DNA of 64,000 nt from a gamma proteobacterium HTCC5015. Lineage in GTDB: Bacteria > Pseudomonadota > Gammaproteobacteria > HTCC5015. Positions 1-33,183 of the stretch are shown in pieces. Numbering within the stretch: position 1 is the stretch's first letter; every line of letters begins with the position of its first letter. The notes beneath the pieces are model-generated. The model saw only the letters and a program-made list of their open reading frames with translations, did not search any database and was not told where the DNA came from. Made by a program: the position numbers and the translations under genes. Location of the stretch: positions 271,627 to 335,626 of the forward strand of contig DS990598.1 in the NCBI GenBank assembly GCA_000155715.1, in the 5' to 3' direction.

Positions 1-726
1 TAATGGTATCGTCGAGTTTATGAAACAATTAGCCGTGCAGATGCCTCCGCGAATGCGCATGCTGTCCGAGGAGATTCCGGTTTCTTCTCTGGCGAGTTGA
101 TGGACTGGCTGGAGCAAGGTGGCCACGGCTATCTCATCAAGGTGAAGCTGAAAGGACTGAGCGCTTTGCTTGATAAACAAACTTGGCAGGCGGTTTCAAA
201 TTGCCCGGGGTGGGAGCAGTGTGAGTTCACTCATGCCTGTGGTAAGTGGTCACGGTCCCGACGATTCATTGCGGTTAGGCGTCTTGCAAAAGTGAAAAAA
301 GAAGGACCACAACAGTCTCTGATTATCGAGCCGGTTTATGACTATTTCTGTTATGTCACCACCGAGCGATTAACGCCTTGGCAAGCACACAAAACCTACG
401 GTCAGCGCGCGACCTGTGAAACCTGGCTGGATGAAGCGAAGAATCAGATGGGCCTGGCACACTTGAAAAGCCACGACTTTGTCGCTAGTTCACTCATGTT
501 TCAAAGCGCTGTGCTTGCCTACAACACCATTCGGTGGATGGCACTTATCAGCAACCATCGCACACTAAGGCGTTGGGAAATCCAGACGATACGCGCATTT
601 CTGGTTCGGACTGCAGGACAGCTGCTTACTGGAAGTAATCAACTGAAGGTAAAAATACCCGATAAGCATCTCTATCCCAGTGAATGGGATGCTTGGCTGA
701 AGTTATCATTTATTAGCGAAGCCTAA
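1..726 (+). pseudogene. IS1380-family transposase, 5' truncated and frameshifted
   Basis: The frame from 97 encodes the C-terminal half of a DDE transposase of the IS1380 type: a YLIKVKLKGL block, the YDYFCYVTTE strand, RATCETWLDEAKNQMGL with the catalytic-type Glu, and a final RTAGQLLTGSNQLK segment. Just upstream the homologous peptide switches frame. The stretch NGIVEFMKQLAVQMPPRMRML reads in the frame of base 2 up to about base 64, and VRGDSGFFSGELMDWLE, with a DDE-type Asp, reads on in the frame of base 1. One base therefore seems to be missing near 62-66. The frame-1 reading also begins with a stop at bases 1-3. The gene is probably inactive. Family assignment is from recognised motifs; the frameshift is seen directly. 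Confidence 0.7.
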
Positions 727-820
727 CCATAAAATTTCCGCCAAAACGATAAAAATAAGTGGCTTTCAAACAGGGCCAAGCGCTCCTATTGCCTACTGAA
801 TACCAAAATCGGAAAATAGG
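1..820 (+). mobile_element. 3' remnant of an IS1380-like insertion sequence
   Basis: The left part of the element lies outside the window. What remains is the C-terminal part of a DDE transposase and about 100 bases of non-coding tail. An inverted pair, cctattgcc near 785-793 and ggaaaatagg at 811-820, could mark the right terminal region, so I place the boundary tentatively at 820. No target-site duplication can be tested because the other end is missing. Assigning the tail to the element is inference. Confidence 0.45.
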
Positions 821-963
821 TCGCCATTTAACCAAACAACGCAATGATTACTGCCAAGCTAATCTCAATCCTTGTCCGAATATCAGAGTGAATGACTTTC
901 AATCGGTCATCTAAGGTGTTTGAGCTACGAAAAAACACAGATTGCAGAATTTAGGTAAGAAAA

Positions 964-3369
964 ATGTTGGAGATCATCAGGATGACTTTTCACAGGAAAG
1001 CTTTGGCAATGGGCGTGCTGGCGGCGGTATACACTGTCCCCTCAATGGCCGATCACGTAACTTTGAATTCGGCCGATGGGTACGCATATTATTTCGACCC
1101 TTCCGAGGGAGACTTGAATAATATCAACAAGGGCGGTTTGTCGGACCCTATCAGCAACGTTCTACTGAGAGTGGACGGCGGCTCCTTCAATGGCAGTGGC
1201 TCTTCTTCCGAGCTGAATGGTCGGGCAAGGTTCTCCGGAACCAGCACCATTTCGGGTCTGACAGTGAGTCGCCAGACTTATGTCTCCTCTGATGAAAACC
1301 TGTTTCGCCAGATGAATTATCTCGAGAATACCACTGGCGCAGCCATTACCGTGGATGTTCGGATTGATGGCGATTACAGCGGCCCTAGCACAACCTACGT
1401 GGAATCCTCTGACGGTAATGCCACTCTGGATGCGGCCGATGTCTCCCACATCGTCGACTACAATGGCGGCATGCAGGTCGTGCATGTGTATGGCAATGCT
1501 GGTGCTGAGGAATCTGTAGATGTGGTTAGTGGCGCCGATGGCAGTGCAGTTTTTTACTACGAGTGGAGTGATGTCACCGTAGAAGCGGGTGAGACAGTGG
1601 CGATCATGACCTTTCTCGCTGGGGCCGATGATCTTTCCGCTGCTCAGGAACGGCAGGCGGCTTTTTCCGGGCTGGCCGGCGATGCTTTGCAGGGAATACA
1701 GAGCGCTGACCTAGGCAACATCGTCAACTGGAACTTTGAAGACTCTGACGGTGACACCATCCCAGATGTGGTGGAAGACGGCTTGGGTCTCGACAAAAAC
1801 GATGCCTCGGATGGTAATGGCGATCTGGATAACGATGGCCTGACTAACAAAGAGGAATACAACGGCAATACCGATTTATCGAACCCCGACTCAGACGGAG
1901 ATGGTCTTAGTGATGGTCAAGAAGTCAATGAGCTGGGTACGGATCCCAACTCCACGGATTCGGATGGTGATGGCCTAAGCGACCCTCAGGAAGTAGCGAC
2001 AGTCAATTACGACCCAACTGATGGCAGCGATGGCTTTATTCATGTTGTTACTAGTGGCGACACCGGTGAAAACCACCAGCCACAAATGGCGGTGGATGCC
2101 GAAGGCCGTTTCCATGTGGTCTGGCTGGAATATTCTGAAGATAGTGGCGAATTTGAAGTGCGCTACAAACTGCTAGATGCCAACTTCGACACGCTGATCG
2201 ACACGGTCGAGGTGACATCGTCTTGTAGCGACAACCAAGGTCACCCCACCATTGCGGTCAGCGCTGATGGCAAGGCTTATCTCGCTTGGTTTGATAGCGG
2301 TTCGAATGACGGTCTGATTGCTGCCATTGACCCAAGCAAGCACGATCTAGATGGTAGCAGTGCCGATATGGCTGACATTAAGGCCTTTACGGATGCTGCG
2401 GCAGACGCTAATGGCATTATCAGTGGTCTCACCGATATGAAACGTGCTCAGGTACAGATCGACAGCCGAGGCCGTATGCACATTGCTCACACCAATAATA
2501 GTAGCGAGATCGGATATCGTGTGTTCCGTGCTGACGGCTCTGAGGCCCGGGCGGTATCCACTCCCTTTAGCATCGATGGATATGACAGCTACGCATACAG
2601 TCAGGTGCGCATGGTGTTGGATTCGGACGACAATGCTCATATTGGCTACTCCGATGGCGATACGGCGTATTACGCCATGTATGACGGTATGGCGGAAGAA
2701 GTGCTGATCGACAGTACAGCCTTGCAGGGGGCGTCGTTTGGTGACAAAAACATGCATGTAAGTACCTCAGTGGACGGTGACGGTAATGTCTACGTCGTGT
2801 GGGGGCATAACGACGACGACGATAGCGGCAGTCCTAATAGTGCGATTGTTTTTGCTTCCTTCAGCTACGCCAGTGATGATCAAGATGGTGACAGCGCCGA
2901 CATGGACAACATTGGCTACGAGTATACTGAGCTGGATATCGCTGCATTGAACCCGTGGTACATCCACTCGGCTATGAATGCTGATGGCAATATAGTCGTT
3001 ACATACATGACGGGGGGTGGTAACTCAATGGCGCCGGTTAACTCGGTAGTGGTAAATACCGAAGGTGAAATTGTGGTCGCAGAGACCCGCTTCAGCGGCC
3101 GAGGTGAGGGCGACTATGAATCCTACAGTAACTTTGCCTTCACTACGGATGGCTACATGACCTACGCCACAGACACAGGTAGCCCGAAACACATCATGAT
3201 TGCCAATGCCGACTTTGTCTTTGAGCCAGTGACGACTCAGGATCAGCTGGAAAGCTCGCTTGATAAAGCGCTGGACTTTGGTGGTTCGTCTGCCTTTAAC
3301 CTTTGGGGGCTGGCAATTTTGTTACTGCCCATGGGTGTTCGCCTAATGGGCCGCAAGTTGCGGAAGTAA
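964..3369 (+). CDS. Exported protein with thrombospondin type 3 repeats and GlyGly-CTERM-like tail
   Basis: An 801-residue exported protein. A signal peptide ends near residue 29 (VPSMA|DHV). Residues about 260-347 contain tandem Asp-rich DSDGDG.SD motifs typical of calcium-binding thrombospondin type 3 repeats. The following 400 residues have recurring D.DGN and HxxW-like strands that suggest a beta-propeller-like fold, which is inference. The C-terminus has GGSSAF, a hydrophobic stretch (WGLAILLLPMGV) and a basic end (RKLRK), the layout of GlyGly-CTERM sorting signals cut by rhombosortase. Two in-frame starts are possible, at 964 and 982; each has a purine-rich stretch upstream. It heads a same-strand group of exported proteins that runs to 5045. 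The substrate is unknown; the protein is probably surface-attached or released. Confidence 0.75.
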   Translation: MLEIIRMTFHRKALAMGVLAAVYTVPSMADHVTLNSADGYAYYFDPSEGDLNNINKGGLSDPISNVLLRVDGGSFNGSGSSSELNGRARFSGTSTISGLTVSRQTYVSSDENLFRQMNYLENTTGAAITVDVRIDGDYSGPSTTYVESSDGNATLDAADVSHIVDYNGGMQVVHVYGNAGAEESVDVVSGADGSAVFYYEWSDVTVEAGETVAIMTFLAGADDLSAAQERQAAFSGLAGDALQGIQSADLGNIVNWNFEDSDGDTIPDVVEDGLGLDKNDASDGNGDLDNDGLTNKEEYNGNTDLSNPDSDGDGLSDGQEVNELGTDPNSTDSDGDGLSDPQEVATVNYDPTDGSDGFIHVVTSGDTGENHQPQMAVDAEGRFHVVWLEYSEDSGEFEVRYKLLDANFDTLIDTVEVTSSCSDNQGHPTIAVSADGKAYLAWFDSGSNDGLIAAIDPSKHDLDGSSADMADIKAFTDAAADANGIISGLTDMKRAQVQIDSRGRMHIAHTNNSSEIGYRVFRADGSEARAVSTPFSIDGYDSYAYSQVRMVLDSDDNAHIGYSDGDTAYYAMYDGMAEEVLIDSTALQGASFGDKNMHVSTSVDGDGNVYVVWGHNDDDDSGSPNSAIVFASFSYASDDQDGDSADMDNIGYEYTELDIAALNPWYIHSAMNADGNIVVTYMTGGGNSMAPVNSVVVNTEGEIVVAETRFSGRGEGDYESYSNFAFTTDGYMTYATDTGSPKHIMIANADFVFEPVTTQDQLESSLDKALDFGGSSAFNLWGLAILLLPMGVRLMGRKLRK

Positions 3370-3414: not shown

Positions 3415-3996
3415 ATGAGCAAGGGCTCTATGGGTTTCCACTACTTATTGTCGACATTGGCATTGATTAGCTTCTTAATAGTGCCGTCTGTTTACGCTCA
3501 GGTCATCGACGTTGACTATAGCAATTGCGACGAGCATGTCACCGTAGCGGTTAAAGAGGCAGATGTTCAAAAGGTGTTGGAAGTCTTGTCCGATCAGTTG
3601 GGCTTTGAGCTCCTGAAAAGCCAGAAGGTTAGCAAGTCAGTGAATCTATCTGGTCGCTTCAGCCAAGAGGTATTGCTTCAGAAAGTGTTGGCTGGGACCA
3701 ACCACTTTGTGAGCCAATCGCCTTCTAGGGACTGCGGTGGTCAGCTAAAGGTCAGTGAAGTTATCCTTCTAGCTCCAGGCGAAACGGTAATGGATCCCGG
3801 TGTGCAACGGTATTTGCCCAAGGTCAATCAAAAAAATCAGGGTAAAACGTTTCAACACATTGCGGATATGCGCACTTATGCTCGGGAAGTGAAAAATAAA
3901 GAGCGAAAAGCACGCAAGGCGCATATGACCCCAGAGCAAAGAACCGAGTTCATGTACCACAAAAAAAGGCTAAACAAATCCGATGAGTCTGAATAA
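3415..3996 (+). CDS. Small exported protein with STN-like (secretin/TonB short N-terminal) domain
   Basis: A 193-residue protein with an N-terminal signal peptide (hydrophobic residues 10-27, cleavage after VYA). Residues about 40-100 (VTVAVKEADVQKVLEVLSDQ ... VSKSVNLSGRFSQEVLLQKVL) show the beta-alpha-beta pattern of STN domains, which precede secretin channels or TonB receptors, but no barrel follows. The tail from about residue 140 is highly charged (KNKERKARKAHMTPEQR). It overlaps the next gene by 14 bases, which suggests translational coupling. A second ATG at 3430 is also possible. The STN call is from pattern only; a periplasmic adaptor is one reading. The function is not known. Confidence 0.6.
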   Translation: MSKGSMGFHYLLSTLALISFLIVPSVYAQVIDVDYSNCDEHVTVAVKEADVQKVLEVLSDQLGFELLKSQKVSKSVNLSGRFSQEVLLQKVLAGTNHFVSQSPSRDCGGQLKVSEVILLAPGETVMDPGVQRYLPKVNQKNQGKTFQHIADMRTYAREVKNKERKARKAHMTPEQRTEFMYHKKRLNKSDESE

Positions 3997-4435
3997 AGCC
4001 GTTATCATTTTTACGGGGCTTTTTTGGGTCAACTCCGTGTTGGCATGCGGGAATGAAAGTCATCCTGGTATGCTTTTTAATGGAGAACCCATGTCGACTC
4101 ACGGTATGAGTCCAGAGGACATTTTCGAAGCGTATCCAAAAGAAAAAATACCTCACAAATCGAATGTTAATAAAGTAGGTATCAAGTTGTCGGCGTTGCT
4201 TAAGCCCCTTGAGGGACAAGCTGGCAACTTACATATATCGACTTGTGGTAAGAAAGAGCGGACATTTTCTAGTGAGGATTTGCTCTCCAGTGAGCCCCAG
4301 AAAAGTCATTATTACTTGGCGCTGACTCGCAAGGAAACGCTCAAACTTGTTCATGCTACGGACCCTAATAGCAAAGGGGGCCAGGTACTCAAGAGAATTA
4401 CAGAGATCGAAGTCATAAAGGCTTCGGATCAGTGA
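3983..4435 (+). CDS. Small exported Cys-containing protein of unknown function
   Basis: 150 residues. The N-terminus MSLNKAVIIFTGLFWVNSVLAC is a short hydrophobic signal ending in LAC-G. It could be a lipobox, although Leu at -2 is unusual, or a signal peptidase I site after Ala. The mature part carries CGNESHPGMLFNGEPM and a second Cys near residue 88 (STCGKKERTF), so a disulfide is possible. The start overlaps the upstream gene by 14 bases. I do not recognise the family. The context, between an STN-like protein and a beta-barrel, suggests a periplasmic or outer-membrane role. Confidence 0.6.
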   Translation: MSLNKAVIIFTGLFWVNSVLACGNESHPGMLFNGEPMSTHGMSPEDIFEAYPKEKIPHKSNVNKVGIKLSALLKPLEGQAGNLHISTCGKKERTFSSEDLLSSEPQKSHYYLALTRKETLKLVHATDPNSKGGQVLKRITEIEVIKASDQ

Positions 4436-9815: not shown

Positions 9816-11054
9816 TTACGCGGCAAACAGCCGTTGAATTTTTTCCAGGGCATCACCGAATTGATCGATCTCTGCCGTGGTGTTGTAAAAGGCCAGCGAG
9901 GCGCGGGCAGTGCCCGGTATGCCAAAGTGATCCATCAGAGGCATGGCGCAGTGGTGGCCCGTTCGAATGGCAATGCCCTGTTGATCGAGCAGGGTGCCAA
10001 TGTCGCTGGGGTGCAGGCCGTCGATCAAAAACGACAGCACCGGGACTTTGTGGTCGGCGGTGCCGATCAGCTGTATACCAGAAATGGCGCTGAGGCGCTC
10101 GGTAGCACGCGCGAGCAGTACGGACTCCGCCTGCTCGATGGCGTCGCGATCCAAGCTGTTCAAATAATCGATGGCCGCGGCGAGGCCGACAGCCTCGGCA
10201 ATGGCGGGCGTGCCCGCCTCAAATTTATAGGGCAGTTGATTCCATGTGGTCTTCTCAAAGCTGACGCGTTCGATCATCTCGCCACCGCCTTGGTAGGGCG
10301 GCATGGCCTGCAAAAGATCGGCGCGGCCATAGAGAGCACCAATACCCGTAGGGCCAAACATTTTGTGCGCGGAAAACGCGTAGAAGTCGCAATCTAGCGC
10401 TTTCACATCGGGCTGAAAGTGGGGCACGGCTTGAGCGCCGTCGATGACGGTGTAGGCACCCGAGGCCTTGGCTTCGGCGATCAAGGTCTCGATAGGGTTG
10501 ATGGTGCCCAGTACATTGGAAACATGCGTGACCGCGAGCACTTTGGTGCGCTCGCTCAGCTGTTGGCGAAAGTGCTCCAAATCCAATTCGCCGCGCTCGC
10601 TGATGGCGATGACTTTGACGCGGGCTCCCGTGCGTTCGGCGATCATTTGCCAAGGCACAATGTTGGCGTGGTGTTCCATTTGGCTGACGAGAATCTCGTC
10701 ACCCGCCGTGAGTTCGGCGGCCAATCCGTTGGCGACCAAATTGATGGCCTCAGTCGTGCCGCGAGTCCAAATGATTTCGCGGCTGTCACTGGCGTTGAGA
10801 AAATCGCGCACAGTGGCGCGGGCACCTTCAAATGCCGTGGTGGCTTTGTCACCCAGCGTGTGGGCGCCACGGTGTACATTGGAGTGACACTCGCGGTAGT
10901 AGCGATCCATCGCTTGCAAGACCGCTTCGGGACGCTGTGACGAGGCCCCGTTGTCGAGATAGACCAGCGGTTTGTCGTTCACGCGCTGACTGAGCAGGGG
11001 AAAGTCCCCGCGAATGCGCTCAATATCCCATGTCGTGTTCACGGCATCATTCAT
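9816..11054 (-). CDS. sufS: Cysteine desulfurase SufS
   Basis: A 412-residue group II PLP cysteine desulfurase that takes sulfur from cysteine for SufE. Motifs: VYLDNGASSQRP near residue 34, EHHANIVPWQ, IDGAQAVPH, the PLP Lys in AFSAHKMFGPTGIG, and the persulfide Cys in RTGHHCAMPLM (about residue 362). The start is taken at 11054 (MNDAVNTTWDIERIRGDFP): it has a GGAG about 10 bases upstream and matches the family length, while the longer frame adds an unrelated 25 residues. It overlaps the end of sufD by 8 bases. Confidence 0.94.
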   Translation of the reverse strand: MNDAVNTTWDIERIRGDFPLLSQRVNDKPLVYLDNGASSQRPEAVLQAMDRYYRECHSNVHRGAHTLGDKATTAFEGARATVRDFLNASDSREIIWTRGTTEAINLVANGLAAELTAGDEILVSQMEHHANIVPWQMIAERTGARVKVIAISERGELDLEHFRQQLSERTKVLAVTHVSNVLGTINPIETLIAEAKASGAYTVIDGAQAVPHFQPDVKALDCDFYAFSAHKMFGPTGIGALYGRADLLQAMPPYQGGGEMIERVSFEKTTWNQLPYKFEAGTPAIAEAVGLAAAIDYLNSLDRDAIEQAESVLLARATERLSAISGIQLIGTADHKVPVLSFLIDGLHPSDIGTLLDQQGIAIRTGHHCAMPLMDHFGIPGTARASLAFYNTTAEIDQFGDALEKIQRLFAA

Positions 11055-12366
11055 CGGACAGCGACTCCGCCGTTTTAAAGGCGTGTGAAAAGAAAGCGTT
11101 GAGGTGCTCGTCGACGGCTTCGCGAACATTGTCGATGGGCACTTCGTCGACCAGTTCGTTGATAAAGGCCATGCTCAAAAGCGCTTTGGCGTCGAGGCGG
11201 TTGATGCCGCGAGCGACTAAATAGAACAGGCTCTTCTCGTCGAGTCGACCAATCGTGGCGCCGTGGGCACACTTCACGTCGTCGGCGTAGATCTCCAGTT
11301 CGGGCTTGGTGTCAATTTCGGCACCGTTGGAGAGCAACAAGTTTTTGTTGTTCATCTCGGCCAGCGACTTTTGCGCATCTTGATGAATGTGGATGCGGCC
11401 GTTAAAGATCGCATGGGAGCGGTCGGCGGCGATATTGCGATAGGTTTCTTCGCTGTTGCAGTGGGGCGCGATGTGTTCGATGACGGTGTGGTTGTCAAAG
11501 TGCTGGCGCCCCTGAGTCACGGCGACGCCGTTGAGCTTGCACTCGGCACCGCTCTCTTCGAGGCGAACTTGCAAATCGTGGCGGCGCAGCTGCCCACCAA
11601 AGCCGATGTGATGGTGCTCCAAGCGCGCGTGTTGAGCGAGTACGGCGCCCGTGGCGCCAATGTGTTGGCTGTGCTCTGCTTCGAGTGCCAATCGCACCCA
11701 GTTGACGTGGGCGTTGGCCGCGAGTGTCATTTCTACTGCGGCGTTGGTCAACGTCGGGTCGGCACCCTCGCTGCTGTATTCTTCCACTACGGCAATCTGG
11801 CTGTTTTCGGCCGCCTCTAACCAAATGCGCGGATAGGAGGCACCAGCGTCGCCGTGAATGGCGAGATAGAGCGGCTGATCGAGTACCGCCCCCTTGGCTA
11901 AGCGAATGACGAGGCCGTCGGCGAGGTGCGCTTGGTTGAGTACCGCCAGTTGCGTGGTCTTCGCATCGAGACAGCTTCCCAGCTTGCCGGCCAGCGCTTG
12001 GGCTTGCAGGTCGTCGAGTTCGCTAAACGCCAGCAACTCAATGCCCGATTGTTGGGGCAGGCGGCTGGCGCTGCGGTCGATCCATCCGTTGCGAATGACA
12101 AGGCGGTAGCCCAAGCCGTGATGGGGCACGCTGTCGGCGCTGTCCGTCTGAGGGGCGTTAGTCCGCGTTTGGGCGATCTGATCGTCCAGCTTGAGCGCGC
12201 GGTAGGAGTACTTCCAATTCTCGGTGCGGCGCGTGGGCAGTGTTAAAGCACTCAGATGGGGCGCAGCCTCATCGCGCCACTTGGCCAGCGGTGCGGGCAG
12301 GGCGGAGGTATGCGCGGGCTTAACAAAAGCCGCTGGTAGCGTTTGCAATGACTTGGCTGCGCTCAT
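11047..12366 (-). CDS. sufD: Fe-S cluster scaffold subunit SufD
   Basis: A 439-residue SufD, which forms the SufBC2D scaffold. It shows the right-handed beta-helix region with GGQLRRHDLQVRLEESGAEC and the conserved C-terminal block (NSEETYRNIAADRSHAIFNG ... KPELEIYADDVKCAHGATIG ... LFYLVARGI). The His of KCAHGAT is the residue proposed as a cluster ligand. It starts 2 bases after the sufC stop and overlaps sufS. Confidence 0.94.
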   Translation of the reverse strand: MSAAKSLQTLPAAFVKPAHTSALPAPLAKWRDEAAPHLSALTLPTRRTENWKYSYRALKLDDQIAQTRTNAPQTDSADSVPHHGLGYRLVIRNGWIDRSASRLPQQSGIELLAFSELDDLQAQALAGKLGSCLDAKTTQLAVLNQAHLADGLVIRLAKGAVLDQPLYLAIHGDAGASYPRIWLEAAENSQIAVVEEYSSEGADPTLTNAAVEMTLAANAHVNWVRLALEAEHSQHIGATGAVLAQHARLEHHHIGFGGQLRRHDLQVRLEESGAECKLNGVAVTQGRQHFDNHTVIEHIAPHCNSEETYRNIAADRSHAIFNGRIHIHQDAQKSLAEMNNKNLLLSNGAEIDTKPELEIYADDVKCAHGATIGRLDEKSLFYLVARGINRLDAKALLSMAFINELVDEVPIDNVREAVDEHLNAFFSHAFKTAESLSDE

Positions 12367-26444: not shown

Positions 26445-27854
26445 ATGTCCATTGATGTTCTGTCATTACTTGTGGGCGCCGCACTATCTGGCATCGTCGT
26501 GGCGGCCTTGGTGTTTTGGGGGCTGCAAGCGCGCCAATCCAAGCGCGAGCGCGATCACACTGAAACTAACAATGCTCTAGCTCTGGAAAACCGCGAGCTG
26601 ACGACGCGCTGCGAGTCGCTGCAAGAGCAGGTAAAAGAGCGCGAGCAACGCTTGGAAAAAGAGCGCGCTGAAATCAAGGAGCTCGCCGAGCGCTATCAGG
26701 ATTTACAGGCGCAATACACCCACACGAAAACGACGCTGCACGAAAAGGAGCGCCAGTTTGATGACAAAATCAAATTGCTGGAAGACAACAAGCAACAGCT
26801 AAAACAAGAGTTCCAAAATCTGGCCAACAAAATCTTTGAAGACAAGGGCAAAGCGTTTAACGACTTGAGCCAGCAATCGCTGGACAATCTATTAAAGCCG
26901 TTTAAACAGCAATTGACGGATTTTAAAACCCGCGTTGAGAACATTCACCACCAAGAGACCACCCAACAAGCCAGCTTGACCGAGCAAATCAAAAGCCTGC
27001 GGGAGCTCAACCAAAAAATCACCGAAGAGGCGCAAAACCTCACCACGGCGCTGAAAGGCGAAAAGAAAACTCAAGGCAACTGGGGCGAGTACATCCTCGA
27101 AAACATTTTGGATAAATCCGGCCTAGTTCGAGATCGCGACTACCGCCGCGAGGTGAGCTTAAAAACCGAAGAGGGGCAGCGACAACGCCCCGATGCGGTG
27201 GTGTATTTGCCCCAGAGCAAACACCTGATTATCGATGCCAAAGTGTCATTAAATGCCTGGACGCGCTATATCGAATCCGAAACAGACGATGAGCGCCGCA
27301 TCGCTTTAAACGCTCACGTCGCAGCGATTAAAGATCGCGTGAAAGAGCTAAGTGATAAAAACTATTTCGATTTAAACGGACTCAACTCGCCCGAAGTGGT
27401 GTTTATGTTTGTGCCCATTGAATCGGCCTTCGCCGCCGCCCTCAGCCACGACCGCGATCTAGCGCTCAACGCCCTCGAAAACAATGTGTTAATCGCCACG
27501 CCCACGACGCTGTTGACCAGTCTCAATATCGTTAGCCAGTTGTGGCGCTTTGAAGATCAAAACAAACACTCCGCACTGCTGGCGGAGAGGGCGGGCAAAG
27601 TCTACGACAAGCTGCGCAGCTTTGTAGACAGCATGGATAAACTCGGCAATCAACTCGGTAGCGCACAAAAGTCTTACGATACCGCCATGGGGCAACTGAC
27701 CTCTGGCCGAGGCAATCTGATTAAACAAGCCAGTGACTTTGAAAAACTCGGCGTCAGTGTTCGAGCCGAGCTCCCCCGAGAACTGGTGGAAAAAGCCGAC
27801 TTAGAACTCGGCCACGAAGAGGGCGGTGACGCGGAGATGAATGATGAGTCGTAA
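26445..27854 (+). CDS. rmuC: DNA recombination protein RmuC
   Basis: 469 residues: an N-terminal membrane helix (about 5-27), a long coiled coil (about 30-210, rich in Glu, Lys and Gln) and the RmuC nuclease-like domain (GNWGEYILENILDKSGL, RPDAVVYLPQSKHLIIDAKVSLNAW). RmuC limits inversions at short inverted repeats, and its fold is related to restriction-type endonucleases. The gene ends where the accessory region begins. Confidence 0.93.
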   Translation: MSIDVLSLLVGAALSGIVVAALVFWGLQARQSKRERDHTETNNALALENRELTTRCESLQEQVKEREQRLEKERAEIKELAERYQDLQAQYTHTKTTLHEKERQFDDKIKLLEDNKQQLKQEFQNLANKIFEDKGKAFNDLSQQSLDNLLKPFKQQLTDFKTRVENIHHQETTQQASLTEQIKSLRELNQKITEEAQNLTTALKGEKKTQGNWGEYILENILDKSGLVRDRDYRREVSLKTEEGQRQRPDAVVYLPQSKHLIIDAKVSLNAWTRYIESETDDERRIALNAHVAAIKDRVKELSDKNYFDLNGLNSPEVVFMFVPIESAFAAALSHDRDLALNALENNVLIATPTTLLTSLNIVSQLWRFEDQNKHSALLAERAGKVYDKLRSFVDSMDKLGNQLGSAQKSYDTAMGQLTSGRGNLIKQASDFEKLGVSVRAELPRELVEKADLELGHEEGGDAEMNDES

Positions 27855-28086
27855 TGTGAAAGAAGACCTAAGGGACAACCACCGCTTTGCTATCTCGACT
27901 CACCGGGGTGGCGCTCGTCACCGTGTGCGCTATGTCGAGAGAGGGGGTGGAGCAGATGATTCGGATGAATGTCGTCTATGCCAACCCACTATTAAATCGC
28001 ACTCCGAAAAAAGTGAAAAAGAGTCGGCCAAGCGTTAGAGGTATAGGCGTAATAGGCCGTGCCCAGTTAACAGCAGAACCACCGTG

Positions 28087-28106
28087 GGTCGGGCTTCAGC
28101 CCGACC
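28087..28106. repeat. REP-like palindrome
   Basis: ggtcgggct-tc-agcccgacc, a perfect 9-base stem. It is the same class as the palindrome at 40532-40558, both sharing the tcgg.ct...ag.ccga core. Confidence 0.65.
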
Positions 28107-28327
28107 GTTGGAGAGCCGAAAAGGCAAGCGTTCTGGCTGCGCCTCCTCGCAATGACGGCAAAACGCTTCACTGTCATCCTGAACTTGATTTGCCTACAGG
28201 GATGTAGGTAAGGAGCGCGAGCAGGAGCGGAAGCTTCAGGATCTCCTTCACCTTGCCCGCCACAGTGTCGCTCCCGCTCAGGCGGGAGCCCAGCGGCTTT
28301 ACTACCCCACGCATCCAAAGACACTAG

Positions 28328-28347
28328 ATTCCCGCCTGCGCGGGAAT
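28328..28347. repeat. REP-like palindrome, attcccgc type
   Basis: attcccgc-ctgc-gcgggaat, a perfect 8-base stem followed by gacga. Repeats of this form are scattered in many proteobacterial genomes. It lies 29 bases beyond the stop codon of the minus-strand gene at 28376. Confidence 0.65.
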
Positions 28348-28375
28348 GACGAGTATTTCAGAGATTTGAGCTTGG

Positions 28376-28720
28376 CTACATATATGGCTTGAAATAACCA
28401 AAATATATAGCCCCTATTGCAGAAGCAATAACCAGACTAATAAAGGTAATATAGGCCGTTCGAGATGGTAGGTTTTTATTGGGAAACTCTAACCACACAA
28501 AAACTTTTCTGTTTACCAGCCATACAATGAAAGCCAATATAGCGGACAATAGAGTATTGAATGTAAAGCGCTCTGCCGCCATTAGCCACCAACCAGTGGT
28601 GGTTAATTTTACTGCAATGAAATCATGCGTCATCCATGCGGCGGATAAAAATCCAAATAGCAAAAGATTCGCTAGAACAAAAAGTTCAAATAAGAGAACG
28701 ACGGTTCGTGAAATTTTCAT
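28376..28720 (-). CDS. Small membrane protein of unknown function
   Basis: 114 residues from the ATG at 28720 (MKISRTVVLLFELFVLANLL). Three membrane helices are visible (about 5-27, 48-68, 86-108) with a short basic loop (NRKVFVWLEFPNKNLPSR). A frame from 28732 would need a TTG start. The DNA is AT-richer than the housekeeping genes. It is the last gene of the minus-strand run that starts at 29749. No family is recognised. Confidence 0.55.
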   Translation of the reverse strand: MKISRTVVLLFELFVLANLLLFGFLSAAWMTHDFIAVKLTTTGWWLMAAERFTFNTLLSAILAFIVWLVNRKVFVWLEFPNKNLPSRTAYITFISLVIASAIGAIYFGYFKPYM

Positions 28721-28762
28721 GTAACGTCGCAATTTTCGGCAGTGGTCCCATTGATTAATTTG

Positions 28763-29158
28763 CTATGTATTGCCACCCCAGTTTTTAGGGAAGTCCAGAT
28801 TTTTCCTAGAATCCAATAGCTTTTGATCAATCATTTTAATGTAAGGTCCAGCTGTATCAGTCCAATTCAACCCAAATTCTTTACCGCTATAACCTGAAGG
28901 CATATATCGCAATGTAACAGTTACATCATCGAAATCGACCACAACTAGATCTACGCAAGGTTTAATGTCGTTTGGCCCGTTATATGTTTTATTTACAAGA
29001 AACTCTACACTTTCTTCGGTAGAAGATGTTAGCTCTTCATTATAGCCCACGAGTCTAATATTTTCTCTAGGTAGAACCACACGCAGGTAAAGAGATGCCC
29101 ATGAAACAATTTCATTTAAGGCACCCTGAGTTATTATCGTGAATTCTTTTTTAGTCAT
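28763..29158 (-). CDS. Hypothetical protein, AT-rich accessory gene
   Basis: 131 residues from the ATG at 29158 (MTKKEFTIITQGALNEIVSW), chosen because GAGG lies seven bases upstream. The longer frame to 29206 overlaps the previous gene and lacks a site. The chain is soluble, mixed alpha/beta, with no signal peptide: helix TKKEF...YLRVVLPREN, strands CVDLVVVDFDDVTVTLRYM, ending in KNLDFPKNWGGNT. I do not recognise it. It has the same composition and direction as its neighbours. Confidence 0.55.
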   Translation of the reverse strand: MTKKEFTIITQGALNEIVSWASLYLRVVLPRENIRLVGYNEELTSSTEESVEFLVNKTYNGPNDIKPCVDLVVVDFDDVTVTLRYMPSGYSGKEFGLNWTDTAGPYIKMIDQKLLDSRKNLDFPKNWGGNT

Positions 29159-29196
29159 TATTAACCTCGGAGGCATAACGCTCCGCTTAGGTGAAT

Positions 29197-29565
29197 TTAT
29201 GTGCACTCTACTATCGTGTCACATACTGGACAAACAGCTTGCTTGGCTACACAGATAATGAATGCCTTGCATTTTTCGCATTGTCCTTGCTCGCAAGTTT
29301 GAGTTTCATTTTTTACCCACTCCAATTCTGCTAGCTGGGTGGTTGGCAGAGCCATAAACTCTGAATGGTGCTCTTCATCTACTTTATTCCTAAAAGACCC
29401 AAATGAAGATTGAACAAGACAATAGCGTTCTTTCTCGTATCCGTCGTCAAAAAAATTGTTGTGATTTTTATCGGTTACTGCCTCATAGAAAAAATCCGCA
29501 AAATCTTTCTCCGTAAGGCCGCGAATGTATTCGAGTGCAACCAACCTTTCTCTGCCATCATTCAT
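29197..29565 (-). CDS. Small protein with C-terminal zinc-ribbon-like cysteines
   Basis: 122 residues. The C-terminal third has CEQGQCEKCKAFIICVAKQAVCPVCDTIVEC, with two close CxxC pairs that probably hold zinc. The N-terminal part is acidic and helical (TEKDFADFFYEAVTDKNHNNFF). AGGTG with seven-base spacing precedes the ATG at 29565. It sits 31 bases after the 50-residue gene upstream. The family is unknown; zinc ribbons suggest protein or nucleic-acid contact. Confidence 0.6.
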   Translation of the reverse strand: MNDGRERLVALEYIRGLTEKDFADFFYEAVTDKNHNNFFDDGYEKERYCLVQSSFGSFRNKVDEEHHSEFMALPTTQLAELEWVKNETQTCEQGQCEKCKAFIICVAKQAVCPVCDTIVECT

Positions 29566-29596
29566 GCCAATTCACCTGACAGTTAAATTAGCGGCA

Positions 29597-29749
29597 TCAG
29601 GCCGCTGATGTTGATGCTGATAAATTATTGATAACAGCGCATTTAATTTTTTCTGCCAGAGATATAGGGCGTAGGGCCGTGTATTTCTGGCTTTGTCTGT
29701 GCTCGTGGCACTTTGATTGTTGAAAATTTTCCGGGAGGTGTTCGTTCAT
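29597..29749 (-). CDS. 50-residue small protein with near-perfect ribosome-binding site
   Basis: ATG at 29749, preceded by AAGGAGGTG with ideal spacing, the best Shine-Dalgarno match in this stretch. The product MNEHLPENFQQSKCHEHRQS...SLAEKIKCAVINNLSASTSAA is polar and basic, has two Cys, and lacks a membrane segment. The stop lies inside a small stem-loop (29590-29606), and the zinc-ribbon gene follows by 31 bases. The start is taken here rather than 29836 because of this site. No similarity is known to me; the case rests on translation signals and gene order. Confidence 0.5.
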   Translation of the reverse strand: MNEHLPENFQQSKCHEHRQSQKYTALRPISLAEKIKCAVINNLSASTSAA

Positions 29750-29884
29750 TTCGGCACCTCCTTGTGTTTGGTTTTTTGAATCTAGCATATTGTGGTGTGG
29801 CGGTGAATGATGGCTCTCTGTTGTAGGTGGCTTCATTTCGTTTGCAATGGCGTTGTGTGTTAATGGCGGTTTTGCTCTCGTTGC

Positions 29885-30922
29885 TTAGCTGTCGTTGGCG
29901 TATTGCTCGGCCAGTGCTTGGGCGGTGCGGGCGAATTCTCGGCGTAGTTTTACGGGCTTGATGACTTCGACTTTTTGGCCAAAGCCCTGTAGCCACCAGC
30001 GCAGCTCCATATTGTCGGCGACGGTGGCGGTGAGTTGGCTCGCTTCGCTGTTGTTCTTGGTTTTGATGGTTTTTATAACTTGATCGTCGCTGATGGGGCG
30101 TTCGATGAGGTGTTGAATCACATCGTTGTCGAAGTGCACTTTAAGGCGCAGCGTTTTTTCGGTGATCGGAAAGCCGAGTGTGTTCTTGACGTATTCCTCT
30201 AATCGAAAACCTTTGGGGCGCCGGGTTTTTTCGTAGCGGTCTTCGGCGCGGATAACGCGATGTAGAGCGTAGGATTTGACCTCATCCAGTGCTTTGCCTT
30301 TGTCGGCGCAGCCAACCAAGTAGGCGACGCCTTCTTTGTGGGCAATGCCCAGTGGGTGGAGGGTGTACTGTTTTTCTTCGCCATCTCGTCGGCGGTAGTG
30401 AATCGCCACCACATGATCGTCTAGCAGGGCTTGTTCGATGGTGCGAACTGCGTCGATGCACAGCTTGGGGGTTTTTAAGTGCGGGCCGCGTGTTGTGGTG
30501 AAGACTTTGTTGCGCCAGCGAGTCAGGCGCTGCCCGGATGCCTGGTGCTCTTTGAGTAGGGAGTCGGCGGCGTCTAGCAAGGGTTGCAGTTCTTGCAGGG
30601 TGGTGTGGGGCAGTTGGTGTTCGAGGGTGTCGCGGGCGACGACAAAGGCGAGCGCGGTAGAGGGCGTCATGCCGTTGATGTTGAGCTTTTGCCCGTGCCA
30701 AGACCACAAGATTGCAGTGCCTTCCTCTTGTCGCGAGAGCGGGAAGTAGTCGCTCAAAAAGTTGAGGTCGCGTTGCACGGCGCGTGTGAGGTTGCGCTTG
30801 TCGTCGCCAAAGCCTTCGTTCATTAAGTGGGAGACCAGTTCGCCGACGCCAGTCGAGCGCGGGCTGGCGGGGATTTTTTGCAGCAGCGTCCACTGCCGCA
30901 TCAGGGTGGTTCGATCAGACAT
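29885..30922 (-). CDS. WYL-domain transcriptional regulator
   Basis: 345 residues. An N-terminal winged-helix HTH (about 5-70: LMRQWTLLQKIPASPRSTGVGELVSHLMNEGF) is followed by a WYL domain (about 165-235: VVAIHYRRRDGEEKQYTLHPLGI, then GVAYLVGCADKGK and KSYALHRVIRAE) and a C-terminal WCX-type extension (TLRLKVHFDNDVIQHL ... LRWWLQGFGQKVEVIKP). WYL domains bind nucleic acid or nucleotide ligands; such proteins regulate DNA-damage genes and many defence islands. AGAGAGG lies eight bases before the ATG. It lies upstream of the small-gene run, in the same direction, with a gap of 135 bases. Confidence 0.88.
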   Translation of the reverse strand: MSDRTTLMRQWTLLQKIPASPRSTGVGELVSHLMNEGFGDDKRNLTRAVQRDLNFLSDYFPLSRQEEGTAILWSWHGQKLNINGMTPSTALAFVVARDTLEHQLPHTTLQELQPLLDAADSLLKEHQASGQRLTRWRNKVFTTTRGPHLKTPKLCIDAVRTIEQALLDDHVVAIHYRRRDGEEKQYTLHPLGIAHKEGVAYLVGCADKGKALDEVKSYALHRVIRAEDRYEKTRRPKGFRLEEYVKNTLGFPITEKTLRLKVHFDNDVIQHLIERPISDDQVIKTIKTKNNSEASQLTATVADNMELRWWLQGFGQKVEVIKPVKLRREFARTAQALAEQYANDS

Positions 30923-31031: not shown

Positions 31032-31118
31032 TGGTGCCGGGGGAGGGACTTGAACCCTCACTCTGTTGCCAGAACCGGATTTTGAATCCGGCGCGTCTAC
31101 CAATTTCGCCACCCCGGC
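31032..31118 (-). tRNA. tRNA-Leu (anticodon CAA)
   Basis: 87 bases reading GCCGGGGTGGCGAAATTGGT from 31118, with a GGTAGACGC D-arm, anticodon stem CCGGA / TCCGG with loop TTCAAAA (anticodon CAA), a long variable arm typical of class II tRNA, the T-arm GGTTCAAGTCC, and an encoded CCA. It stands between the WYL gene and recD, a usual kind of insertion site, though I see no duplicated att segment. Confidence 0.96.
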
Positions 31119-31164: not shown

Positions 31165-33183
31165 TTATTCATATAAAAAATTCTCCAATTGTCGTTGTAG
31201 GCCACTAGAGCGCATGGTGGGGCGCTGGCTGAGCTGTTTGAGCAGCTGGGTATCGGCGCAGCACAGGCTGAATTGCGCCTTGGCGCGAGTGACGGCGGTG
31301 TAGACCAGCTCGCGGCTGAGTACGGGGCTGTCCTCGGGGGGCAGCAGTAGCGCCGTGTGTTCAAACTCCGAGCCCTGGGATTTGTGCACGGTCATGGCGA
31401 AGGCGGTTTCAACGTGGCTCAGGCGGCTGGGGGCAATCCAGCGCACGCCTTGATCCGCATCGGGGAAAACGGCGTAGAGCCTGTTGTCGCCGTTGGCGTC
31501 GGGTTTGCTGAGCACCAGTCCCGTGTCGCCATTCATTAGGCCCACGGGGTAGTCGTTTTTTTGAATCATGATCGGGCGGCCTTCGTACCAGACTGCTTTT
31601 GGCTGTTGCTCGTCATCGCGCGGGAGCAGGTGTTGGCGCTGTAAATCGGCTTCAATCGCTTGGTTGATGGCCTCTACGCCCCATTCACCGCGCCTGAGTG
31701 CGCACAGCAGCTGAAAGCGATTGCGCGCTTTCAGCAGGGTGAGAGCCCATTGATCAAAGTCGGCAGGCGCCGCGTCTGCCGCTGGCCGCTGTTGCTGGAG
31801 CTGTTGCAGATAGTGGGCGTAGCCCGTGGCGTCGAGCTCGGCGTTGCCCAGTCGACACAGTGAGCGCCACTGCGTTAGGGCGACGAGGCCAATGTCGCTG
31901 TGCCGTTGGAACAGTGGGTCGATGTCGTTTTGATGGCCGCCATTGATGGCCTCGGCCAGTTGGCCGATGCCGCTGTTGGCGTCAAAGCGGTGGCTGTGTT
32001 GCAGCAGCGTAATGCACTGTAGGCGGTCGTGCCCCTGGGGATTGATGGCGCTCGCTTTGAGGGTTTCGCCGCTGACGCGGCTCAGCCACTCGGCGTGTTG
32101 TGGCTGGTAGTCGATGTCATCGGCGCCCTGACAGAGATCGCCCATGACGGCGCCGGCTTCCACCGAGGCCAGCTGGTCTTTATCGCCCAGCAGCACGAGG
32201 TGGGTGGACTCGGGCAGGGCGCGCAGCAGGCTGTCCATTTGATCGAGGGCAATCATGCTGGCCTCGTCGACAATGACGACATCGCAGCGCAGCGGGTGGC
32301 GCTCGTTGTGGCGAAACTCGCGGCTGCTGGGAATGACGCCGAGCAGGCGGTGAATGGTTTTGGCTTTGACTTGCAGTTGTTCGCGCCAGTTGTCCAATTG
32401 GCCGTCGAACAGCTTGGGGTCAATGGCGTGGCTCTCCAAGGCGTGATTCATGGACTCCTGCATGCGCGCCGCGGCTTTGCCTGTGGGGGCGGCCAAGTAA
32501 ATGTGCAGCGTTTGATCGCTTTGCTGGGCGAGCAGGGCGCACAGCACTTTGACCACGGTGGTGGTTTTGCCAGTGCCCGGCCCGCCAGTAATCACGCTAA
32601 AGTGGCCGCGCAGTGCGTTGGCACAGGCGATTTTTTGCCAGTTGGTCGCGGCCTCGGAGTTTGGGCTGCTAGGAAATAAGGCGTCGAGTATCTTCGAGCG
32701 CGTTGCGGGGGTTTGAGGCGGTTTTAAGGCATTTTTAATGCGCGATGCGAGGTGTTGGGCGACGCGGTGCTCGGTGCGCCACTGGCTGTGCAAGTACAGG
32801 CGGCTTTCGTCGAGTACGAGTGGTTTGTCATCGTTTTTTTCGCCCACAAATTGGCTGGCCTGTAGAGCTGCTTTGAGCGCGGGCCAACCCAATTGGTAGA
32901 GCTCGCTCGCCAGATTGGTGTGGGGCGCCGCCGATGTGTGCTTGGGCGTTTCTCCCATCATGCGTTGTGCGCACTCGCCTTGCTCGGTAAACAGGCGATC
33001 AAGATCGAGGCAAATATGCCCCAAACTCAATTGTTGGCTCACGAGAGCGGCGGCCGCCAGTGCGCTGTCGTCGGCGCTGTCGTCCTGCTGCTGCAAAAAT
33101 TGCACGAGAGCCACGTCGATGGCGCGCAGCCAGCCCTGCTGGCGAGCGCGTTCTACGGCAGGGGGCAAAGGCTTATGCTGCAT
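31165..33183 (-). CDS. recD: Exodeoxyribonuclease V alpha subunit RecD
   Basis: 672 residues with the start at 33183 (MQHKPLPPAVERARQQGW). It is a superfamily 1B 5'-3' helicase: Walker A ITGGPGTGKTTTVVKVL (about 196-212), VDEASMIALDQM (motif II), LLGDKDQLASVEAGAVMGDL (motif III) and VHKSQGSEFEHT near the end (motif V-VI). The 110 residues encoded upstream in frame are low-complexity antisense-like text inside recB. It overlaps the recB end by 11 bases. Confidence 0.94.
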   Translation of the reverse strand: MQHKPLPPAVERARQQGWLRAIDVALVQFLQQQDDSADDSALAAAALVSQQLSLGHICLDLDRLFTEQGECAQRMMGETPKHTSAAPHTNLASELYQLGWPALKAALQASQFVGEKNDDKPLVLDESRLYLHSQWRTEHRVAQHLASRIKNALKPPQTPATRSKILDALFPSSPNSEAATNWQKIACANALRGHFSVITGGPGTGKTTTVVKVLCALLAQQSDQTLHIYLAAPTGKAAARMQESMNHALESHAIDPKLFDGQLDNWREQLQVKAKTIHRLLGVIPSSREFRHNERHPLRCDVVIVDEASMIALDQMDSLLRALPESTHLVLLGDKDQLASVEAGAVMGDLCQGADDIDYQPQHAEWLSRVSGETLKASAINPQGHDRLQCITLLQHSHRFDANSGIGQLAEAINGGHQNDIDPLFQRHSDIGLVALTQWRSLCRLGNAELDATGYAHYLQQLQQQRPAADAAPADFDQWALTLLKARNRFQLLCALRRGEWGVEAINQAIEADLQRQHLLPRDDEQQPKAVWYEGRPIMIQKNDYPVGLMNGDTGLVLSKPDANGDNRLYAVFPDADQGVRWIAPSRLSHVETAFAMTVHKSQGSEFEHTALLLPPEDSPVLSRELVYTAVTRAKAQFSLCCADTQLLKQLSQRPTMRSSGLQRQLENFLYE

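Follow-up and report, generated by a model that had tools for sequence, protein, structure and literature searches.

What is the run of small genes that lies between rmuC and recD in the gamma proteobacterium HTCC5015? The 64,000-nucleotide stretch of DNA that was analysed is called the window below. The initial annotation described the run as four AT-richer small genes, all in one direction downstream of a WYL-domain regulator and bordered by a tRNA-Leu gene, and suggested a single system with a possible role in defence. The neighbours of the run are as follows.

26445-27854, plus strand: rmuC
29885-30922, minus strand: WYL/WCX regulator (Pfam WYL and WCX domains), a neighbour only
31032-31118, minus strand: tRNA-Leu (CAA), a neighbour only, outside the proposed array
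about 31165-33180, minus strand: recD

The regulator, the bordering tRNA gene, and rmuC and recD as the opposite borders of the run were all confirmed. The small genes are indeed AT-richer, with a GC content of 0.38-0.43 against 0.57-0.61 in the WYL gene and recD and a third-position GC of 0.31-0.42 against 0.69-0.73; the WYL gene is host-like in composition. An acquired AT-rich island of unknown genes, as first proposed, is supported. Three small ORFs of 122, 131-137 and 114 amino acids do lie in one direction, on the minus strand, but the fourth, the 50-residue protein, falls inside an attI-like element. The run shares its strand with the WYL gene, which lies upstream, but the same element stands between that gene and the first small gene; its left edge is 95 bp from the end of the WYL gene. 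The run is very probably a small integron cassette array that lacks an integrase gene: an attI-type leader followed by three captured cassettes with decayed attC sites. Counting this one, at least nine leader-plus-cassette units are dispersed round the chromosome. Its parts are listed below.

29576-29789, minus strand: attI-type leader element, 214 bp, with the crossover core AACTG^T (G at 29580), an element of which the genome has at least nine copies
29597-29749, minus strand: ORF of the 50-residue gene, inside the leader, probably no gene
29579-29605, minus strand: palindrome GCGGCC..GCCGC plus ATTTAACTGT, adjoining the crossover point and common to the DNA beside intI
29197-29565, minus strand: cassette 1 ORF, 122 aa, with a C-terminal CxxC..CxxC zinc-ribbon-like end; the cassette begins at the attI core (G at 29580)
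29172-29197, minus strand: attC remnant between cassettes 1 and 2, AATTCACCTAAGCGGAGCG^TTATGCC, centre missing
28763-29158, minus strand: cassette 2 ORF, 131 aa (137 aa from the upstream ATG at 29176)
28719-28768, minus strand: weak attC-like site where cassettes 2 and 3 meet (attC model R2 over 4 kb, unfiltered: 10.6 bits, E=0.16)
28376-28720, minus strand: cassette 3 ORF, 114-aa membrane protein, after the core G^TTACATG
28067-28350, no strand: palindromic repeats ending the array, with an inverted repeat at 28267-28350 and GTCATTCCCGCGCAGGCGGGAATC at 28327-28350

The leader is a repeated element. The DNA that leads from the integron integrase gene (intI) of this genome to its first cassette and the DNA under the 50-codon ORF are alike in two collinear blocks, and each block exceeds every simulated control. 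A pattern taken from the second block, GCGGCCNNANGCCGCTNATTTAACTGT, was matched at nine genomic sites and in reverse at none (control, 0). One site is beside intI, one is in the window, and seven others are on five contigs; because the count is based on one pattern search, at least nine is a lower bound. The window copy was also found by a leave-one-out model, R3, built from the eight other copies (96.7 bits, E=5.4e-29). Across the nine copies the leader extends for up to about 260 bp, from TGTGCTA or a close variant at the left to AACTG^T at the right, with internal deletions in two of the nine. The copies are 52-89% identical, an identity at which they would be old. In all nine the similarity ends at one common G^T point, where a cassette starts, and the left edge of the conserved part is nearly identical in all. 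At locus L037 the copy occupies the place of attI, with intI on one side and the first cassette on the other; the other eight are copies without intI.

The 50-codon ORF is probably attI DNA rather than a gene, because it lies inside the leader and its ATG is missing from every other copy. The start codon is replaced by ATC, ATA or ATT in all eight, none of which has an equivalent reading frame, and the product has no relative in plasmids.

The hairpins of the leader covary among copies. Nine pairs have changed on both sides, the covariation score is reached by 0 of 500 shuffles, and slid controls score far lower. Three inner stems are of either a ATATGCGGC or a TTAACGGC type and switch together, a pattern that repeated binding sites for the integrase could explain. 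Hairpins of the GGGAGGTG..CACCTCCC type were seen in leader copies, for example in the window (29576-29789) and at L053:3506-3764. For the leader hairpin and the co-changing stems together, structured RNA and repeated binding sites are both possible. An extended -10 promoter may be present at TGTGCTA/ATATGCTA; we infer its activity, because the sigma-70 promoter search of the window gave no match on the TGCTA motif of the leader. With the best five candidates per genome taken in 369 genomes, the leader model gave only chance-level matches in the 368 others of the class. In plasmids, matches to the element did not exceed chance, and no exact 20-mer of it was found in viral contigs. The leader model detects arrays whose attC sites have decayed beyond normal detection.

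The window is such a case. Its genes start at integrase cores, at AACTG^T for the first and then at G^TTATGCC and G^TTACATG for the second and third. The start and end of cassette 1 are complementary at 10 of 12 positions (p about 0.003); an anchored complementarity test of the same cassette was not significant. The attC remnant at 29172-29197 was unrecognised by the attC model, the R''/R' complementarity between start and end was not significant for cassettes 2 and 3, and cassette 3 has lost its 3' attC and is followed by the palindromic repeats. This leaves one weak match and one unrecognised remnant, short of the two recognisable attC sites by which a cluster of attC sites lacking an integron integrase (CALIN; PMC9024848) is usually recognised. 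No intI is present in the window, so it does not hold a complete integron either. The window array is the most decayed of the nine.

Of the products, only that of cassette 2 has a known relative among integron cassettes. Searches of 369 genomes, plasmids, phages and viral contigs gave no relative of the cassette 1 protein, and searches of plasmids none of the cassette 3 protein. A scan of GTDB contigs with the 137-aa protein gave no relatives, the small proteins match no Pfam, NCBIfam or PADLOC family, and a PDB search with them gave nothing useful. Single-sequence structure predictions were poor (pLDDT 46 for the 122-aa and 37 for the 137-aa protein). A tblastn search with the 137-aa protein found homologues, 41% identical in the alignment, in two Alteromonas macleodii plasmids. 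There the gene lies in a row of small hypothetical genes split by repeated, roughly 115-nt palindromic sites, with an integron integrase-like stretch about 3 kb from it. This row is an integron cassette array. The core and leader of the Alteromonas cassette are recognisable before the start codon of window cassette 2, because the sequences before the two starts, GTTATATGCTTCGAGG..ATG and GTTATGCCTCCGAGG..ATG, are alike. An RHS gene near the Alteromonas array had raised an identity as immunity proteins for this family, which was dropped in view of the attC sites there. RHS-repeat protein genes, one or more and with several repeat matches, also occur in HTCC5015 at G000:C30:65400-69900 (L039).

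The sister arrays retain what the window has lost. At the seven sister loci, attC sites stand directly after the first gene with no intI nearby, as in a CALIN. In most of these sites R'' complements the R' of the cassette itself by 6 to 10 exact anchored nucleotides; three matches are individually significant at p<0.05. An attC model built from 12 sites has covariation beyond both controls and detects sites outside its training set, including four in the Alteromonas array (three with E 0.0008-0.02, one with only 0.56). Unrelated AT-rich genes follow each leader core, and GC is low in all arrays. The cargo includes the following.

L052 (G000:C30:184300-191300), 462-2357, minus strand: Pycsar pair in the cassette array behind the leader (PADLOC PycC, 7e-147; membrane effector PycTM, 2.4e-29)
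L053 (G000:C29:34200-41200), 1580-3005, minus strand: CAP12-type TIR protein and YefM-YoeB pair, consecutive (TIR protein: PADLOC PDC-S35, 2e-111)
L051: TIR protein and SMR pump
L050: Phd-ParE
L054: Hfx_Cass5 and SUKH protein (Pfam names the Hfx_Cass5 family after integron cassettes)
L048: Sel1 protein

At L051 a HigB-like gene is followed by a HigA-like antitoxin gene (3752-4117, minus strand), whose end is a short way upstream of the leader's left edge. At L037, remnants with a shared end motif (10820-10847 and 11248-11275) surround a piece of an IS30-like transposase, and similar CTTAGTATCAAG ends occur in L051, L053 and L048. In several arrays such remnants lie within or close to attC sites, which would suit an insertion sequence with a preference for attC.

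For the suggested defence role, known phage-defence genes are carried by the sister arrays, but Pfam, NCBIfam, PADLOC and PDB searches found no such function for the three proteins of the window. The idea suits the sister arrays better than the window array. That the genes form one system is not supported; behind the attI-type leader they resemble cassettes that are independent of one another.

The sole integron integrase of the genome is at G000:C22:17119-17937 (TIGR02249, 342.8 bits against a cut-off of 265). Its gene, L037 9114-10001 on the minus strand (G000:C22:17113-18000), adjoins a palindromic repeat. As assembled it stops at HTFRHSFATRLLESA, short of the segment where IntI3 has its catalytic tyrosine; complete homologues exist elsewhere. 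In the seven sister loci tblastn found no intI except a 5' remnant in L052, next to the leader. On the preferred reading, an integron integrase acting at the leaders most likely inserted the cassettes, each leader would supply a promoter for the expression of its first cassettes and serve as a working attI/Pc, and the attC sites of the window cassettes have decayed. The sequences themselves show the repeated leader, the cassette homologue in a real integron and the attC sites at the seven sister loci, whereas a working attI/Pc, an integrase serving the copies in trans and expression from each leader are inferences. The arrays would be frozen now, because the only intI ends before the catalytic tyrosine as assembled. 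Counted in support of the array are the integrase above cut-off, the nine leaders, the leave-one-out match, the Alteromonas homologue, the sister attC sites, the cassette-type cargo and the low GC. Counted against it are the poor attC sites of the window, complementarity in cassette 1 that is significant in one of two tests, and the lack of relatives for cassettes 1 and 3.

One integrase may have acted in trans, or each array may have lost its own intI; L052 alone keeps intI 5' sequence beyond the start region. There is about an even chance that the arrays were once complete integrons, or belonged as pieces to one, that each lost intI through deletion or rearrangement, and that one integrase never served them in trans. 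Loss of intI is a published origin of integrase-less arrays (PMC8618304), the copies appear old at 52-89% identity, several retain sequence up to the ribosome-binding and start region of intI, and the remnant in L052 lies beside its leader; however, no intI remnant extends past the start region in seven copies, and the left edge of the conserved part is nearly the same in every copy. More tentatively, and with some doubt, the genome may hold a distributed integron, in which attI-plus-promoter platforms were multiplied over the chromosome and one integrase served all of them in trans. If this is true, many cassettes would be first in line and expressed at once rather than waiting in one long array.

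It is improbable that the repeated element is not attI at all, being instead a structured repeat found at many places, an attC of unusual length, or an off-target hotspot similar to attG that takes cassettes. Several covarying hairpins in the element would agree with this, and insertion at attG sites has been described (cited in PMC12444791 and PMC12901181). However, one copy sits where attI should be, after intI and ahead of the first cassette, the nine copies diverge at a common G^T where a cassette starts, and attG sites are described as divergent from attI and not as near-full copies of it.

An undescribed defence or damage-response system of four WYL-regulated small genes is very hard to credit: the genes are unknown, of one strand and directly downstream of a WYL gene, and WYL proteins can regulate defence loci, but the fourth gene belongs to the repeated element, the leader separates WYL from the rest, one gene has an integron cassette relative, and WYL homologues occur without these genes. 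The control by the WYL regulator that had been proposed is not supported by the four inspected homologue loci (L003-L006, about 30-35% identical, three genomes), none of which has the small genes of the window beside it; regulator and putative effectors are not linked across these genomes, and Pfam, NCBIfam and PADLOC place no known defence domain among the small genes. A scan of GTDB contigs with the WYL protein gave no relatives. For the rmuC-recD interval, three genomes of the same family offered no matching recD, and their rmuC was about 30% identical or not found. The WYL regulator shows no link to the cassettes and no sign of controlling them.

The usual picture of an integron is a single platform and a single array, the first cassettes of which are best expressed. 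At least nine leader-plus-cassette units in one genome, several with phage-defence and toxin-antitoxin genes, are a different layout, in which the origin of scattered integrase-less arrays becomes testable. Integrase-less arrays as such are common, and off-target insertion, loss of intI and rearrangement have been proposed as their origins (PMC8618304, PMC9024848). Cassettes as stores of phage defence are likewise already published (PMC12444791 and papers cited there). Within open-access full text and a limited set of search wordings, no description was found of many arrays in one genome each headed by its own near-full attI-like leader.

CALINs (PMC9024848) share with these arrays the presence of cassette genes and attC sites and the absence of an adjacent intI. 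The arrays here differ in that each retains an attI-like leader, up to about 260 bp in length, and by the customary two-attC rule for CALINs the window copy would not qualify. In Xanthomonas, several CALINs lie away from the intI locus and one array is near recD, but the portion of PMC12444791 consulted mentions no repeated attI-like leader for them. Cassettes at attG sites (cited in PMC12444791 and PMC12901181) also occupy dispersed genome positions; attG sites differ strongly from attI, whereas all sites here are copies of one leader. The Delta-attI-type cassettes of clinical integrons (PMC12901181) also carry attI sequence away from intI, mostly as 14-18-nt pieces downstream of the cassette gene, whereas near-full leaders head separate arrays here. 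The sedentary chromosomal integron of Vibrio (papers from 2025, cited in PMC12444791) shares promoterless small cassettes with toxin-antitoxin and phage-defence cargo. There the cargo sits in one long array, whereas here it is divided among at least nine short ones, and the single intI here is truncated as assembled.
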